Of a DNA stretch of 64,000 nt, positions 3,448 through 62,510 are shown in pieces; the first letter of the stretch is position 1, and the number at the start of each line of letters is the position of its first letter. The stretch spans positions 806,001 to 870,000 of the forward strand of contig CP076546.1 of NCBI GenBank assembly GCA_018889975.1. The letters run 5' to 3'. This DNA is from Bacillus sp. NP157. GTDB lineage: Bacteria; Pseudomonadota; Gammaproteobacteria; Xanthomonadales; Rhodanobacteraceae. Under the pieces are notes generated by a model. It was not told the origin of the DNA. It worked only from the letters and a program-made list of their open reading frames with translations, and did no database searches. The translations under genes were made by a program, and so were the position numbers.

Positions 3448-3823
3448 GGGGGAATCTCCGGATTGGTTGAGAGCGATCCCGCAAGCGTACCAAGCCAGAC
3501 CGGTTGCCGCTTCGCGGCCGTGCCTCACGGCCTCCGGCCGAACCTCGGCCCTGTAGGAGCGCGCCTGCGCGCGATGTCGTCCCCGCGGCGCTCGAACGTG
3601 GCCGCAGGATAGCCCTCGGTGCCTACCCTCGCTGCTCAGACAGGTCCTCCGCGCTCGACAAGGGTGGCCGCAGCCGCGGCCCATGTACCTAATCAGCCTT
3701 CGGCTGCTCGCTTGTGCGGAACTCGCCTCGAGGGTAGGCACCGAGGGCTCTCCTCATCCTTGCCGCGAACGGGGTGTGACAGCCGCGGTATCGGCATCCC
3801 CGACGCAGCGGCAGCTCTCGTAG
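3448..3823. repeat. Intergenic REP composite: REP, 139-bp element A, left half of interrupted REP
   Basis: No gene seen. A REP palindrome lies at 3553-3574 (GTAGGAGCGCGCCTGCGCGC core). A spacer containing GCGGCGCTCG follows, then element A at 3611-3749 in plus orientation. Its 21-bp arms (3611-3631 and 3729-3749) are perfectly complementary. A flank then leads to a second REP, which the IS110 element breaks after position 3823. The same REP-element-REP order, with homologous flanks, recurs intact at 62069-62357. Confidence 0.85.
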
Positions 3824-3838
3824 ATACTCTCTTCCCGG

Positions 3839-4834
3839 TCAACCCTGCCTAAGGTGCTCTGGGCTAAAAAGCTTGGTGACGTCGAAGTTTTCGTTGTCGC
3901 GCAGGCAAGCCCAGAGCCCGGTGAGGTATTTGCGCATGACTGCCGCGAGGGCCTGGCGCTTGGCCTTTCCGCGACGAAGCAGCTGTTCGTAGAAGGCTTT
4001 GACCAAGGGGTCGTAGCGCACGGCAACCAGCGCAGGCATGTACATGCCTGCGCGCAGGTAGGTGTTTCCGCCCTTGCTTAGCCGCGGCCGTCCGTGGACG
4101 CTCGTGCCCGATTGGGTGTGACAAACGTCCAGGCCCGCATGGCGGCTGACCTGCGGCGCTTTCATAGTGCTGGGAAGCATGGCCAGTTCAGCGAGTACCG
4201 CCATCGCCGAGACCTCGGCGATGCCCGGGGCTGCGGTCATGTGGCGAAGCTGGGCTTGGCGCACCGGATCGGTGTCGATCTGCTGGCGCATCGCACCGCG
4301 CAGGCGTTCGATGCGCCGATCGAGGGTGGCGACGGCCTCGGTTTCGTCCTCGAGCAGCAGCACATGCGTGCCCTTCTTGGCAGTCAGGGCGTGCAGGCGG
4401 TTCTTCGCGCGGACCCGCTCCCCCAACAGCCGGTTCACCTGCCGTCCCAGGTCCCGCAGGGCCAGGTCCGCCTGCTCCGGTGCGATCCAGCGTGCCGGCT
4501 TGAGCGCCTCGCCATACTCGGCAAGCAACCCCGCATCGATCGTGTCGGTCTTGGTGCCCTTGAGCTTGAGCTGGGCGAACCGCTTGGCACTGCGCGGGTT
4601 GATGACCGAGACCGGCAATCCAGCCCGATCCAGCGCGATGGCCAGGTCCAGGTGATAGATCCCGGTCGCTTCCATCACCACCCAGGAAGGCCGTAAATCC
4701 AGAAGCTTCCTGGCCAGCCGTGCATGTCCTGCCGGGGTTTGCTCGAACTTCCCCAGCGCAACACCCTTGCCGTTGTCATACGAGGCCACGGCGCAGTCGC
4801 GCGCGCTGACGTCCAATCCGATCGACATGACCAT
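3839..4834 (-). CDS. IS110-family transposase (DEDD bridge recombinase)
   Basis: 331 residues, full length. The N-terminal RuvC-like DEDD domain has D8 (GLDVS), E55 (VVMEATG), and D97 with D100 (KTDTIDA). A helical middle follows, then the C-terminal Tnp_20 domain with AGLDVCHTQSGTSVHGR, where a serine around S245 is expected to be the nucleophile. The family excises and integrates its element through a circular form, guided by a structured RNA from the element's own end. Met3 at 4828 is an alternative start. The stop codon overlaps the TTGACC that would serve as -35 in the circle. All catalytic residues are present. Confidence 0.93.
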   Translation of the reverse strand: MVMSIGLDVSARDCAVASYDNGKGVALGKFEQTPAGHARLARKLLDLRPSWVVMEATGIYHLDLAIALDRAGLPVSVINPRSAKRFAQLKLKGTKTDTIDAGLLAEYGEALKPARWIAPEQADLALRDLGRQVNRLLGERVRAKNRLHALTAKKGTHVLLLEDETEAVATLDRRIERLRGAMRQQIDTDPVRQAQLRHMTAAPGIAEVSAMAVLAELAMLPSTMKAPQVSRHAGLDVCHTQSGTSVHGRPRLSKGGNTYLRAGMYMPALVAVRYDPLVKAFYEQLLRRGKAKRQALAAVMRKYLTGLWACLRDNENFDVTKLFSPEHLRQG

Positions 4835-4888
4835 CCCTTACATCCTCCGCGAGTTAGCGTGAGAATGGATCCGGCTCCCCGACCCCGC

Positions 4889-5056
4889 ATTTTTTGCCCC
4901 TGCAACCTTGTATGCGAAGTCCCTCGCGGGCTTCTGGATACTCTCCGCAGTTGGCAATGGGGCGGGGGCCACTCTACAGGCGAAGTCAGGAACATCCTGC
5001 TTCAAGGAGCGCGCGGCCTCCCCGGAATCCTTCGCACACCCCCCGGATGGGAGGCA
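4889..5056 (-). ncRNA. Putative bridge RNA of the IS110 element
   Basis: Read on the minus strand. A 5' hairpin CCTCCC-ATCC-GGGGGG (5054-5039) comes first. The target loop has a basal stem of GGGG and GGCC (5023-5015) with GGCC and CCC (4970-4964), a left guide GCGCGCTCCT (5014-5005), a distal hairpin (5003-4982) and a right guide CCTGTAG (4980-4974). The donor loop has basal stems CTGC/GCAG-type and TTGCC/GGCAA, a left guide GAGAGTATC (4945-4937), a distal hairpin (4934-4916) and a right guide ATACAAG (4913-4907). Target guides match the REP around core CT. Donor guides match the element's own ends (3823-3831 and 5065-5071). Both distal hairpins share GAAG...CTTC with one bulged A. Ends of the RNA are estimates; size and order agree with the IS621 bridge RNA. 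Confidence 0.8.
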
Positions 5057-5071
5057 CCGCCAAGATACAAG

Positions 5072-5547
5072 GAGCGCGCCTGCGCGCGAACAGCCGACGG
5101 AGCGGTTTAGCCGGAATGTTTGTAACTGACTCGCCGGAGCGTTCTGAACTTCAGTCGAAACGATGGTTTTGGCTTCACAGTCGAATGCTACCGAATCCGC
5201 GTTCGCGCGCAGGCGCGCTCCTACAAAGCCGTCGGGTCGCCAGGCAGGGCCACGGTGCGCCACTCCACCCGTCGCGGCAGGCGCGCTCCTGCAGACAAGG
5301 CTTGCGGCGGGCTGCAAGAACAGACCTTGGCGCCCACCCTCGAGGCGAGTTCCGCACAAGTGAGCGGCCGCAGGCCGATAGATGCATGGGCCGCGGCTGC
5401 GGCCACCCTTATCGAGCGCGGAGGACCTGTCTGAGCAGCGAGGGTGGGCGCCGAGGGCTGGTCCTGCGACCACGCCCGAGCGCCGCGGGTCCTGCGACCA
5501 CGCCCGAGCGCCGCGGGTCCCGCGACCACGCCCGAGCGAGGAGGGGC
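5072..5547. repeat. REP right half, REP, 133-bp element B and 28-bp tandem repeats
   Basis: No gene seen. 5072-5089 is the right half of the REP split by the IS. A flank homologous to 62358-62420 follows. A minus-oriented REP is at 5203-5224 and a partial one near 5276-5295. Element B spans 5325-5457 in minus orientation, with arms of the GGCGCCC type paired to GGGCGCC. Directly after it a 28-bp unit starting CCTGCGACCACGCCCGAGCG occurs at 5463-5490 and 5491-5518, with a partial third copy to 5540, ending just before the rimO promoter. Confidence 0.85.
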
Positions 5548-24277: not shown

Positions 24278-24710
24278 ACCGGTTCGCCGCAGCTGCGGCG
24301 CGTGCCTCACTCACGGCCTCCGGCCGAACCTCGGCCCTGTAGGAGCGCGCCTGCGCGCGATTGGGTCGACGCGGCGCTCATGCGTGGTCGCAGAAGAGCC
24401 CTCGCTGCCCACCCTCGCTGCTCAGACAGGTCCTCCGCGCTCGATAAGGTTGGCCGCAGCCGCGGCCCATGTACTTATTGGCCTGCGGCCGCTCGCTTGT
24501 GCGGAACTCGCCTCGAGGGTGGGCACCGAGGGCTCTCTTCATTGTCGTCGCGATCGGGTCGGAGCACCGCTGTAGGAATGCGCCTACAAGTGTTGGGGGA
24601 TTGGTGACGTGCTTCGTCGGGTTTTCTGCGTGCACCGCTCAGCGTGGGGACGCGTTCGTGCTGCGAGCCGGGTTTGGGCTAGCGCGACACAATGATTTCG
24701 AGGAGTGGCG
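24278..24710. repeat. Intergenic REP and 138-bp element C
   Basis: A 16-bp palindrome CGCCGCAGCTGCGGCG (24285-24300) follows the autotransporter stop. A REP lies at 24339-24360. Element C spans 24397-24534 in plus orientation, with arms matching at 20 of 21 positions. A decayed REP lies near 24570. The rest holds no gene I can support up to the small open frame at 24711. Confidence 0.85.
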
Positions 24711-25182: not shown

Positions 25183-25534
25183 TTTTTCTGGAATGCCGCG
25201 GTTGTGGTTGCGTTGCCGTGGTTTCCGGTCGCGCGCAGGCGCGCTCCTACAGGAGCTGTGCGGCGTGCAAGAACAGCCCTGGGCGCCCACCCTCGAGGCG
25301 AGTTCCGCACAAGCGAGCGGCCGAAGGCCGATTAGGTACACGGGCCGCGGCTGCGGCCAACCTTATCGAGCGCGGAGGACCTGTCTGAGCAGCGAGGGTG
25401 GGCGCCCAGGGCTGGTCCTGCGACCACGCCCGAGCGCCGCGCAGAGCAGCGAGGGTGGGCGCCCAGGGCTGGTCCTGCGACCACGCGCGAGCGCCGAGCG
25501 TGTCCGCGACCACGCCCGAGCGCCGCGCAGAGGT
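25183..25534. repeat. REP, 139-bp element D and duplicated right arm
   Basis: REP in minus orientation at 25229-25250. Element D spans 25275-25413 in minus orientation with perfect 21-bp arms; its distinctive GGGCGCCC pairing differs from other copies yet is compensated on both sides. The right-arm end plus GGTCCTGCGACCACGC is repeated at 25449-25490, and the GCGACCACG spacer motif occurs again up to the CocE stop codon. No gene seen. Confidence 0.85.
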
Positions 25535-40275: not shown

Positions 40276-40754
40276 GTCTGGATCCTTCAGGTGGGCAGGC
40301 TTGCGGGCCGTAGAACCTTACGCCGGGGTGGAGGGGGTGGGTATTTGTCTTATGGCTATGGGTGCGGGATGAAGTTCGATGGGATGGAATTGGATGGGTC
40401 GCGTGGCTTGGACGCGGTTCGGCGGGCGGCTGCGTTCCGGTGTCGCCCGTTCGCGCGCAGGCGCGCTCCTACATGGGCTGGGCGGGGTGCGAGAGCAGGC
40501 CTCGGGGGCCACCCTCGAGGCGAGTTCCGCACAAGCGAGCGCCCGTAGGGCAATAAGTACATGGGCCGCGGCTGCGGCCACCCTTATCGAGCGCGGAGGA
40601 CCTGTCTGAGCAGCGAGGGTGGCCGCCGAGGCCTGATCCTGCGACCACGCCCGCGCGCCGCGCAGAGGTCGTCCCCCGAAGCCCCAGCAGATCGCAGGCG
40701 GTAACGGGTAAGCGAGGCTATACTCCACGGTCAGTCCTAGAAAAGCACCGCGCC
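40276..40754. repeat. Intergenic REP and 138-bp element E, then prmB promoter
   Basis: No gene seen. REP in minus orientation at 40451-40472. Element E spans 40497-40634 in minus orientation. Its arm ends are AGGCC with GGCCT, replacing AGCCC with GGGCT of other copies, so pairing is kept; one mismatch lies within the arms. TATACT at 40719-40724 is a candidate -10 for prmB. Confidence 0.85.
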
Positions 40755-53030: not shown

Positions 53031-53347
53031 TCATTCGCCCGAATCGAGGTTGACGGTTCGCGCGCAGGCGCGCTCCTACGCCTGATGCCGATGCCAGCCC
53101 ATGCCAGTGTGCTGGCGTTTGGCCGTCCGCCCACGTCGCGGCAAGGATGAAGAGAGCCCTCGGTGCCTACCCTCGAGGCGAGTTCCGCACAAGCGAGCGG
53201 CCGAAGGCTAATCGAATACACGGGCCGCGGCTGCGGCCAACCTTATCGAGCGCGGAGGACCTGTCTGAGCAGCGAGGGTAGGCACCGAGGGCTGTCCTGC
53301 GACCAAGCCCGAGCGCCGCGCACAGCCCGATGACGCCGAACCCCGGA
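53031..53347. repeat. REP and 139-bp element G
   Basis: REP in minus orientation at 53058-53079. Element G spans 53155-53293 in minus orientation with perfect 21-bp arms of the GGTGCCTACC type. The spacer GCGACCAAGCCCGAGCGCCG follows. No gene seen. Confidence 0.85.
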
Positions 53348-62008: not shown

Positions 62009-62510
62009 GTTATGTGGGTCGCCGCTTTGCGGCGCATGTCTCTCGGCCTCCGGCCGAACCGCCGCCCTGTAGGAGCGCGCCTGCGCGCGAATGCCGTCCC
62101 CGCGGCGCTCGGACCCGCCCGCAGGACAGCCCTCGGTGCCTACCCTCGCTGCTCAGACAGGTCCTCCGCGCTCGATAAGGTTGGCCGCAGCCGCGGCCCA
62201 TGTATTTGATTGCCCTACGGGCGCTCGCTTGTGCGGAACTCGCCTCGAGGGTAGGCACCGAGGGCTCTCCTCATCCGTGTCGCGAACTGGGTAGGACAGC
62301 CGCGCCACCGGCATCCCCGACGCAACGGGGCTCTTGTAGGAGCGCGCCTGCGCGCGAAAAGCCAACGAAGCGGTTTAGCGGAAGGATCTGTAACCGACTC
62401 GTCCGAACGCCCTCTACTTACATCGAAGCGCACTGTCCCCTGCCAGCCCATGGCGGCCACTGCCAAAGACCTCTTAAGATGACTGGCTCCCCCTCGACAA
62501 GGAACGATGA
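62009..62510. repeat. Intact REP composite: REP, 139-bp element H, REP
   Basis: REP at 62069-62090, spacer with GCGGCGCTCGG, element H at 62128-62266 in plus orientation with perfect 21-bp arms, a flank, and REP at 62336-62357. About 60 bp of further shared sequence (AGCGGTTTAG...) follows. Both flanks are homologous to those around the IS110 element, which makes this the uninterrupted counterpart. No gene seen before 62511. Confidence 0.88.

Follow-up and report, generated by a model that had tools for sequence, protein, structure and literature searches.

Does the non-coding left end of the IS110-group insertion sequence present in the window (the whole 64-kb stretch of DNA analyzed here) encode a bridge RNA with guides for both a REP target and the element's own ends? 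This had been proposed from the letters of the stretch, and the covariation of guides with insertion sites among relatives, together with compensatory pairs in the RNA, supports the proposal. We consider it nearly certain that the locus is a complete IS110-group (IS621-like) IS whose bridge RNA is predicted to direct the recombinase into host REPs. The support observed consists of the anatomy of the element, the identical REP positions of its copies, guide-site covariation in relatives and the compensatory pairs.

Borders, copies and recombinase of the element

The borders were placed where identity between copies stops. This gives an element of 1248 bp with one CT core, reading from 5071 to 3824:

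3824-5071, minus strand: whole IS110-group element
5072-5089, plus strand: palindromic portion of the REP that the element interrupts, reading GAGCGCGCCTGCGCGCGA on the plus strand; the minus strand gives the left target GCGCGCTC
5070-5071, minus strand: CT core of the left junction, common to target and element end
3839-4834, minus strand: IS110 transposase, 331 aa, with D8, E55, D97, D100 and S242
3824-3831, minus strand: left donor sequence GAGAGTAT, the right end of the element
3822-3823, minus strand: CT core of the right junction

Two traits of the IS110 group are evident in this arrangement. A long left end of 237 bp ahead of the transposase gene (5071-4835) is combined with a short right end of 15 bp past the stop codon (3838-3824), and the site is specific with a short core, CT being found at both junctions in five copies. 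These five are the full copies of the element in the host genome (one contig, 4.88 Mb). All of them occupy the identical position in the REP, in one orientation relative to it; the left flank is GCGCGCTC (in one copy GTGCGCTC) followed by CT, and the right flank is CT followed by AC. No copy with the same guides was seen at a site unrelated to REPs (5/5 lie in them). The transposase frame is intact in all five, and the copies differ by one base only, in a run of C residues that has six C in three copies and five in two.

The transposase matched PF01548 (DEDD RuvC-like) and PF02371 (catalytic serine domain), both above cut-off, and scored 194.5 bits against NF033542, 'IS110 family RNA-guided transposase' (cut-off 140). 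Among chains of solved structures the closest by sequence was the ISCro4 transposase (PDB 9t56; E 1.2e-36), and IS621 was matched with E 1.8e-34. Residues D8, E55, D97, D100 and S242 align with the catalytic D11, E60, D102, D105 and S241 of IS621, in the numbering of PMC11208158, which the chain numbering in the alignment exceeds by about 2; D8 was placed via ISCro4 because the IS621 alignment begins further on. All five residues are conserved in 15 of 15 aligned proteins, the window protein included and the protein of L195 left out.

The predicted bridge RNA and its putative junction promoter

The following features were located in the left end:

4869-5055, minus strand: predicted bridge RNA of about 187 nt, its 5′ end placed from the promoter and its 3′ end from conserved sequence and pairs
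5039-5055, minus strand: 5′ hairpin (GCCTCCC...GGGGGG), from single-sequence folding only
5005-5014, minus strand: left target guide GCGCGCUCCU (DNA GCGCGCTCCT), including core CU
4982-5003, minus strand: distal hairpin of the target-binding loop, with a bulged A
4974-4980, minus strand: right target guide CCUGUAG, its GUAG being the REP head
4964-4968, minus strand: C-run in the 3′ arm of the target-loop stem; five C in the window copy and one other, six in three
4937-4945, minus strand: left donor guide GAGAGUAUC (DNA GAGAGTATC), equal to the right end at 3831-3823
4916-4934, minus strand: distal hairpin of the donor-binding loop, with a bulged A
4907-4913, minus strand: right donor guide AUACAAG, pairing with CTTGTAT (5071-5065) over seven bases without interruption

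The layout is of the IS621 type, with a target-binding and a donor-binding loop preceded by a 5′ hairpin, the last from folding only. The original prediction had described this hairpin and the two serial loops, which are present, but had ended the RNA at 4889, which is 7-20 nt short of its predicted 3′ end. Beyond 4889, at about 4886-4882, lies the 3′ arm of the donor-loop outer stem; covarying pairs reach about 4882 in a 19-sequence alignment and about 4870 in a four-sequence alignment, the latter with two compensated pairs in a further outer helix to about 4870. Both distal hairpins, at 5003-4982 and at 4934-4916, were confirmed to contain GAAG...CTTC plus one additional A.

Since the folding energy of 4889-5056 alone is not unusual (z -1.10; 25 of 200 shuffles were as stable), the case for the structure rests on compensatory changes. 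The whole left end gave z -2.26, with 4 of 200 shuffles as stable. Both partners have changed in 21 of the 34 base pairs across the 19 aligned RNAs, and the covariation score is 0.416 versus 0.182 for shuffled data and at most 0.108 with the pairing partners slid. Pairing is seen in 96.4% of cells, versus 84.2% when shuffled and at most 50.6% with slid partners, a percentage favoured by the design, as the consensus structure was taken from this same 19-sequence alignment. The covariance model played no part in building the alignment. One measure out of five was less clear-cut: 44 further pair types were counted versus 38.2, a value reached in 7 of 500 shuffles. The well supported parts are the target-loop stem, the target-loop distal hairpin and the donor-loop outer stem. 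Rfam 15 gave no gathering-level match in the 64-kb window, and at E up to 5 over 4800-5100 only two unrelated sub-threshold matches were listed.

Two alleles of the bridge RNA, with five and six C at 4968-4964, coexist in the host genome (the window copy, L001, L003, L004 and L005).

On re-checking, all four guide strings were exact, and their order and sense are as described for IS621 (PMC11208160). The left target guide GCGCGCTCCT equals the left side of the target including core CT, and the right donor guide ATACAAG complements the first seven bases of the element, CTTGTAT; both had been predicted. The other two claimed matches hold in part. The right target guide complements the REP consensus CTACAGG, but at the window copy only CTAC pairs unbroken, because the flank there reads CTACGAG; CTACAGG itself flanks one of the five copies (L005). 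The left donor guide equals the element end at 3831-3823, but its match takes in just one base of the CT core, the first (GAGAGTATC is followed by C). GTAG ends the right guide in 22 of 25 aligned RNAs, two of which come from the host genome.

To gauge how unlikely such matches are by chance, the 237-nt left end was subjected to 100,000 dinucleotide shuffles; the four exact strings appeared in 48, 961, 45 and 363 of them. At least two occurred together in 4 shuffles and at least three in none, in line with the earlier judgment that four matches are improbable by chance. Because the strings were picked post hoc these figures serve as a guide only, and the independent test is covariation in relatives.

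A sigma70-like promoter would be rebuilt when the ends of the element are joined in a circle:

5062-5067, minus strand: predicted -10 box, TATCTT, of the promoter that circle closure would restore
3837-3842, minus strand: predicted -35 box TTGACC, overlapping the TGA stop of the transposase and 17 bp from the -10 box after closure

In the IS110 group a circular intermediate has a promoter across its junction; the predicted junction of this element contains candidate boxes spaced by 17 bp. In the window alone the score was reached by 235 of 20,000 shuffles, so it is the recurrence of the promoter that carries weight: across the predicted junction it is the best-scoring arrangement in 15 of 15 elements with both ends joined, 14 of them having a 17-bp spacing and the remaining one 18 bp, with 8-10 of 12 consensus bases.

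Guides and insertion sites among relatives

Relatives were sought by DNA, by protein and with a covariance model trained on four left ends (those of the window, a Vibrio plasmid, an Oceanospirillales bin and Rheinheimera). The model matched 8 of 369 genomes of the class and 11 of 328 of the order, the host's own included in each case, and its matches span at least three orders within the class, namely the host's own and those of G479 and G494. Five of 233 family genomes matched by protein (E 1e-30), the own genome included and the others only 32-36% identical; the element is therefore uncommon in genomes close to the host's. In the host's genus, 3 of 23 genomes matched by DNA: the host itself, G014 with four copies and G007 with a single 28-base match only. 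Plasmids yielded one record by DNA (the Vibrio plasmid) and three by protein at E 1e-40; phages yielded six records by protein at E 1e-30, all with at most 34.5% identity. A scan of genome contigs gave 342 relatives, from which 80 loci were retained; of these only L042 (49%) and L043 (54%) were close, and the others were 28-36% identical. When 36 of these 80 loci were compared with the covariance model, L050 gave E 0.007, L107 gave 0.076 and the rest were weaker or gave nothing; none was used. Searches of 5 genomes from the order of G479 and 8 from that of G494 yielded no new element, the left end had no match in the E. coli genomes searched, and among viral contigs searched by protein five stretches fit a pattern, none being confirmed as a relative.

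In total, 24 elements or element families were tabulated, three of them from G783 and two from G372, and these are not independent. Before counting, L196 (left end not found), L177 (donor loop lost) and L204 and L206 (further left ends of G705) were dropped. L197 was also dropped, its frame and core being unclear, but was kept in the palindrome count below; L173 was left out for left sites and its right end was used. For L122 and L123 the frames were assigned manually. In the permutations, which ignore shared descent of the entries, each guide was compared with its own site and with the sites of the others.

Guides were found to change along with insertion sites for both target guides and for the left donor guide. 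Over seven non-core positions of the left target guide the 24 entries match their own sites at 5.25 versus 3.18 across entries, a value not reached in 100,000 permutations (best 4.52). With one entry per distinct left guide (n=18) the figures are 5.11 versus 2.97 (0 of 20,000 permutations). The signal is seen at guide positions 3-6 (-5 to -2), where matches to the own site were 0.71, 0.92, 0.92 and 0.88 versus 0.38, 0.42, 0.33 and 0.47 for others. For the right target guide 17 entries gave 3.69 versus 2.50 of 5, and for the left donor guide 17 entries gave 6.65 versus 5.89 of 8 (0 of 100,000 permutations each). Without L122 and L123 the counts were 0, 6 and 1 of 100,000 for the left target, right target and left donor guides, respectively. 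Complementarity to and covariation with target and donor, as in IS621-type systems, are thus found, the statistics applying to both target guides and the left donor guide. Poor left-guide fits were recorded for L199 (2/7), L042 (4/7, rank nine), L123 and L176 (4/7 each) and L021 (5/7, rank five), and right target guides fell below the cross means in G479 (2.1 of 5) and G760 (2.0 of 5).

Individual relatives illustrate the covariation. The element of G014, from the host's own genus, differs in its left guide and lies in other palindromes, CGGCTCCT, with 6/7 matches at each of four sites; only the left 88 bases and the right ends of this element were read, and it was used for left target guides only. 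G277 has the right guide GCGTTAG and the site CTAACG, and its donor GAGCAT is accompanied by a matching change in the donor guide; in G668 the donor and the donor guide alike read GGAGGAT. In L123, a distant relative on a Salinibacter plasmid, the core is AT in the site and in both target guides, with GC at that place in the donor guide. Seven copies in G479 carry the left guide TCCCGACCT, and that genome contains 521 KCCCGACCTAC sites versus 39 for the backward control; elsewhere the counts are 5 in the host genome (control 21) and 9 in G014 (control 20).

The donor end of the G014 element (L136, L148, L164 and L169) reads GAGAGCAT, not GAGAGTAT; for this reason the donor string of the window missed its right end, which was revealed by contig ends. 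In G479, one of seven copies (L173) lacks the CTTGTAT left end, but its RNA loops, gene and right end are retained. The left junction of L197 (G728) is TT-TGTAT and its longest frame has 149 aa; this is a decayed copy or one with a shifted core.

The same data allow other accounts of the left end to be weighed. Given how common REP sequence is and how short the right guide, the guide matches might be due to chance or to the copying of flanking REP sequence into the left end. We give this almost no credence, since three or more of the four strings never came together in 100,000 shuffles and relatives in other palindromes have other left guides at the same structural position. It could also be that the RNA mainly regulates expression of the transposase and that the protein alone selects the REP. 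Such regulation has been reported for ISPpu9, an element of Pseudomonas putida REPs, where two small RNAs and a structured leader act on the transposase (PMC8450116). A regulator, however, needs no match to the insertion site, and at positions -5 to -2 the left guides agree with their own sites at 0.71-0.92 versus 0.33-0.47 for others; regulation in place of guidance is therefore very improbable, and the RNA may regulate as well as guide.

A further account accepts the element as real and holds that the window copy is disabled, a one-base deletion in the C-run having spoiled the target-loop stem. The missing base does cost one stem pair, in the window copy and one other, the remaining three copies having six C. 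However, the five-C form occurs in two copies at unrelated sites and the frame is intact in 5/5, and we regard loss of function as unlikely. Given the two unrelated sites, the five-C form has either moved since, or the slip (or a sequencing error in the run) occurred twice.

Proposed mechanism, REP targets and known systems

The reading we prefer, that of a bridge RNA guiding the recombinase into REPs, suggests the following course by analogy with IS621. The element would leave as a circle. Closure would place TTGACC of the right end 17 bp from TATCTT of the left end and so activate a bridge RNA of about 190 nt, which would be bound by the DEDD/serine recombinase. In the first loop the left guide would pair with GCGCGCTC plus CT, from the palindrome stem of a host REP, and the right guide with CTAC, which complements GTAG in the REP head; the second loop would pair with the joined ends GAGAGTAT-CT-TGTAT. 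Strand exchange at the common CT would then give insertion in one orientation within the GTAG head (core AG on that strand).

The REP targeted by the element is GCGCGCTCCTACAGG. Exact 12-bp targets GCGCGCTCCTAC number 651 in the host genome (337 and 314 by strand) versus 5 (2 and 3) for the backward control, and the window contains 17 matches to the REP consensus with at most three mismatches, versus 1.36 expected. In such REPs a palindrome comes after a GT(A/G)G head (PMC2817692), and the insertion point of the element falls inside the GTAG head. The target resembles a REP listed for Xanthomonas campestris in the same paper. Across relatives, a perfect stem of at least 6 bp ending within 3 nt of the core was found at 31 of 40 insertion sites versus 292 of 8,000 shuffled flanks, the 40 including several sites per genome, which are not independent. 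The nine sites without such a stem are those of L021, L043, L122, L123, L174, L176, L178, L197 and L199. One Y1-transposase-like (RAYT-like) gene was found in the host genome (L215 1193-1910, G000:C1 about 4521799). The target REP of the element is present on both its flanks, and the gene is therefore likely the RAYT of these REPs.

Based on the stems abutting 31 of 40 sites and on the REP-flanked RAYT-like gene, we put at about even the chance that the clade of IS110 elements to which this one belongs specialises in REP/RAYT repeats, its right guide GUAG answering to the head common to REPs of many bacteria and its left guide being rewritten for the palindrome stem of each host. If this is true, the RAYT keeps supplying landing sites and the element switches hosts through a few changes of guide bases. 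A right guide fixed on the REP head combined with a left guide following the host palindrome may be a step beyond published work. The mechanism itself is ordinary, having been documented for IS621 in 2024, and what is new here is an element with unusually legible guides. Two relatives of the same genus with different left guides and different, matching REP families amount to an independent natural test of bridge RNA reprogramming. The reading also offers a simple account of the frequent presence of IS110 elements in REPs, and the roughly two dozen natural guide/site pairs are candidates to try as recombinases.

The element resembles IS621 of E. coli (Durrant et al. 2024, PMC11208160; structure, PMC11208158) in its DEDD/Ser recombinase, in a predicted left-end bridge RNA with the target loop ahead of the donor loop, in the CT core and predicted junction promoter, and in a REP target ending in CCTAC (ATCAGGCCTAC in IS621). 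It differs in its guides and REP, and the recombinases match with E 1.8e-34 only. Its right donor guide pairs unbroken, whereas the IS621 paper describes discontiguous pairing, and its left donor guide matches one core base only, whereas the published scheme pairs the core dinucleotide each time (PMC11208160). ISPpu9, ISPpu10 and ISPa11, IS110-family elements of Pseudomonas REPs, are likewise reported to have all copies at one fixed REP point (PMC1525189). Compared by description, ISPpu9 and ISPpu10 insert between REP bases 9 and 10 and ISPa11 between 6 and 7 (authors' numbering in that paper), and their REPs and hosts differ from ours. In the description of seekRNAs of IS1111 and IS110 elements (PMC11187229), an RNA from a non-coding region picks the target; the IS110 type lies upstream of the transposase, like the RNA described here, whereas the IS1111 RNAs lie mostly downstream. 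Among papers linking IS110, REPs and GTAG, a set that leaves subscription papers mostly uncovered, none deals with a bridge RNA as judged by title and the start of the abstract.

A second dispersed repeat, containing CTCGAGGCGAGTTCCGCACAAG, has seven copies in the window with zero mismatches:

3711-3732, 5339-5360, 24496-24517 and 25292-25313: second repeat, copies 1-4
40514-40535, 53172-53193 and 62228-62249: second repeat, copies 5-7

Each copy has a GTAGGAGCGCGC REP 41-139 bp leftward in window coordinates, always in the opposite orientation; the two are convergent in three cases and divergent in four. They seem to be associated, though not as one fixed unit. A sequence similar to the second repeat is also found at contig ends of G014.
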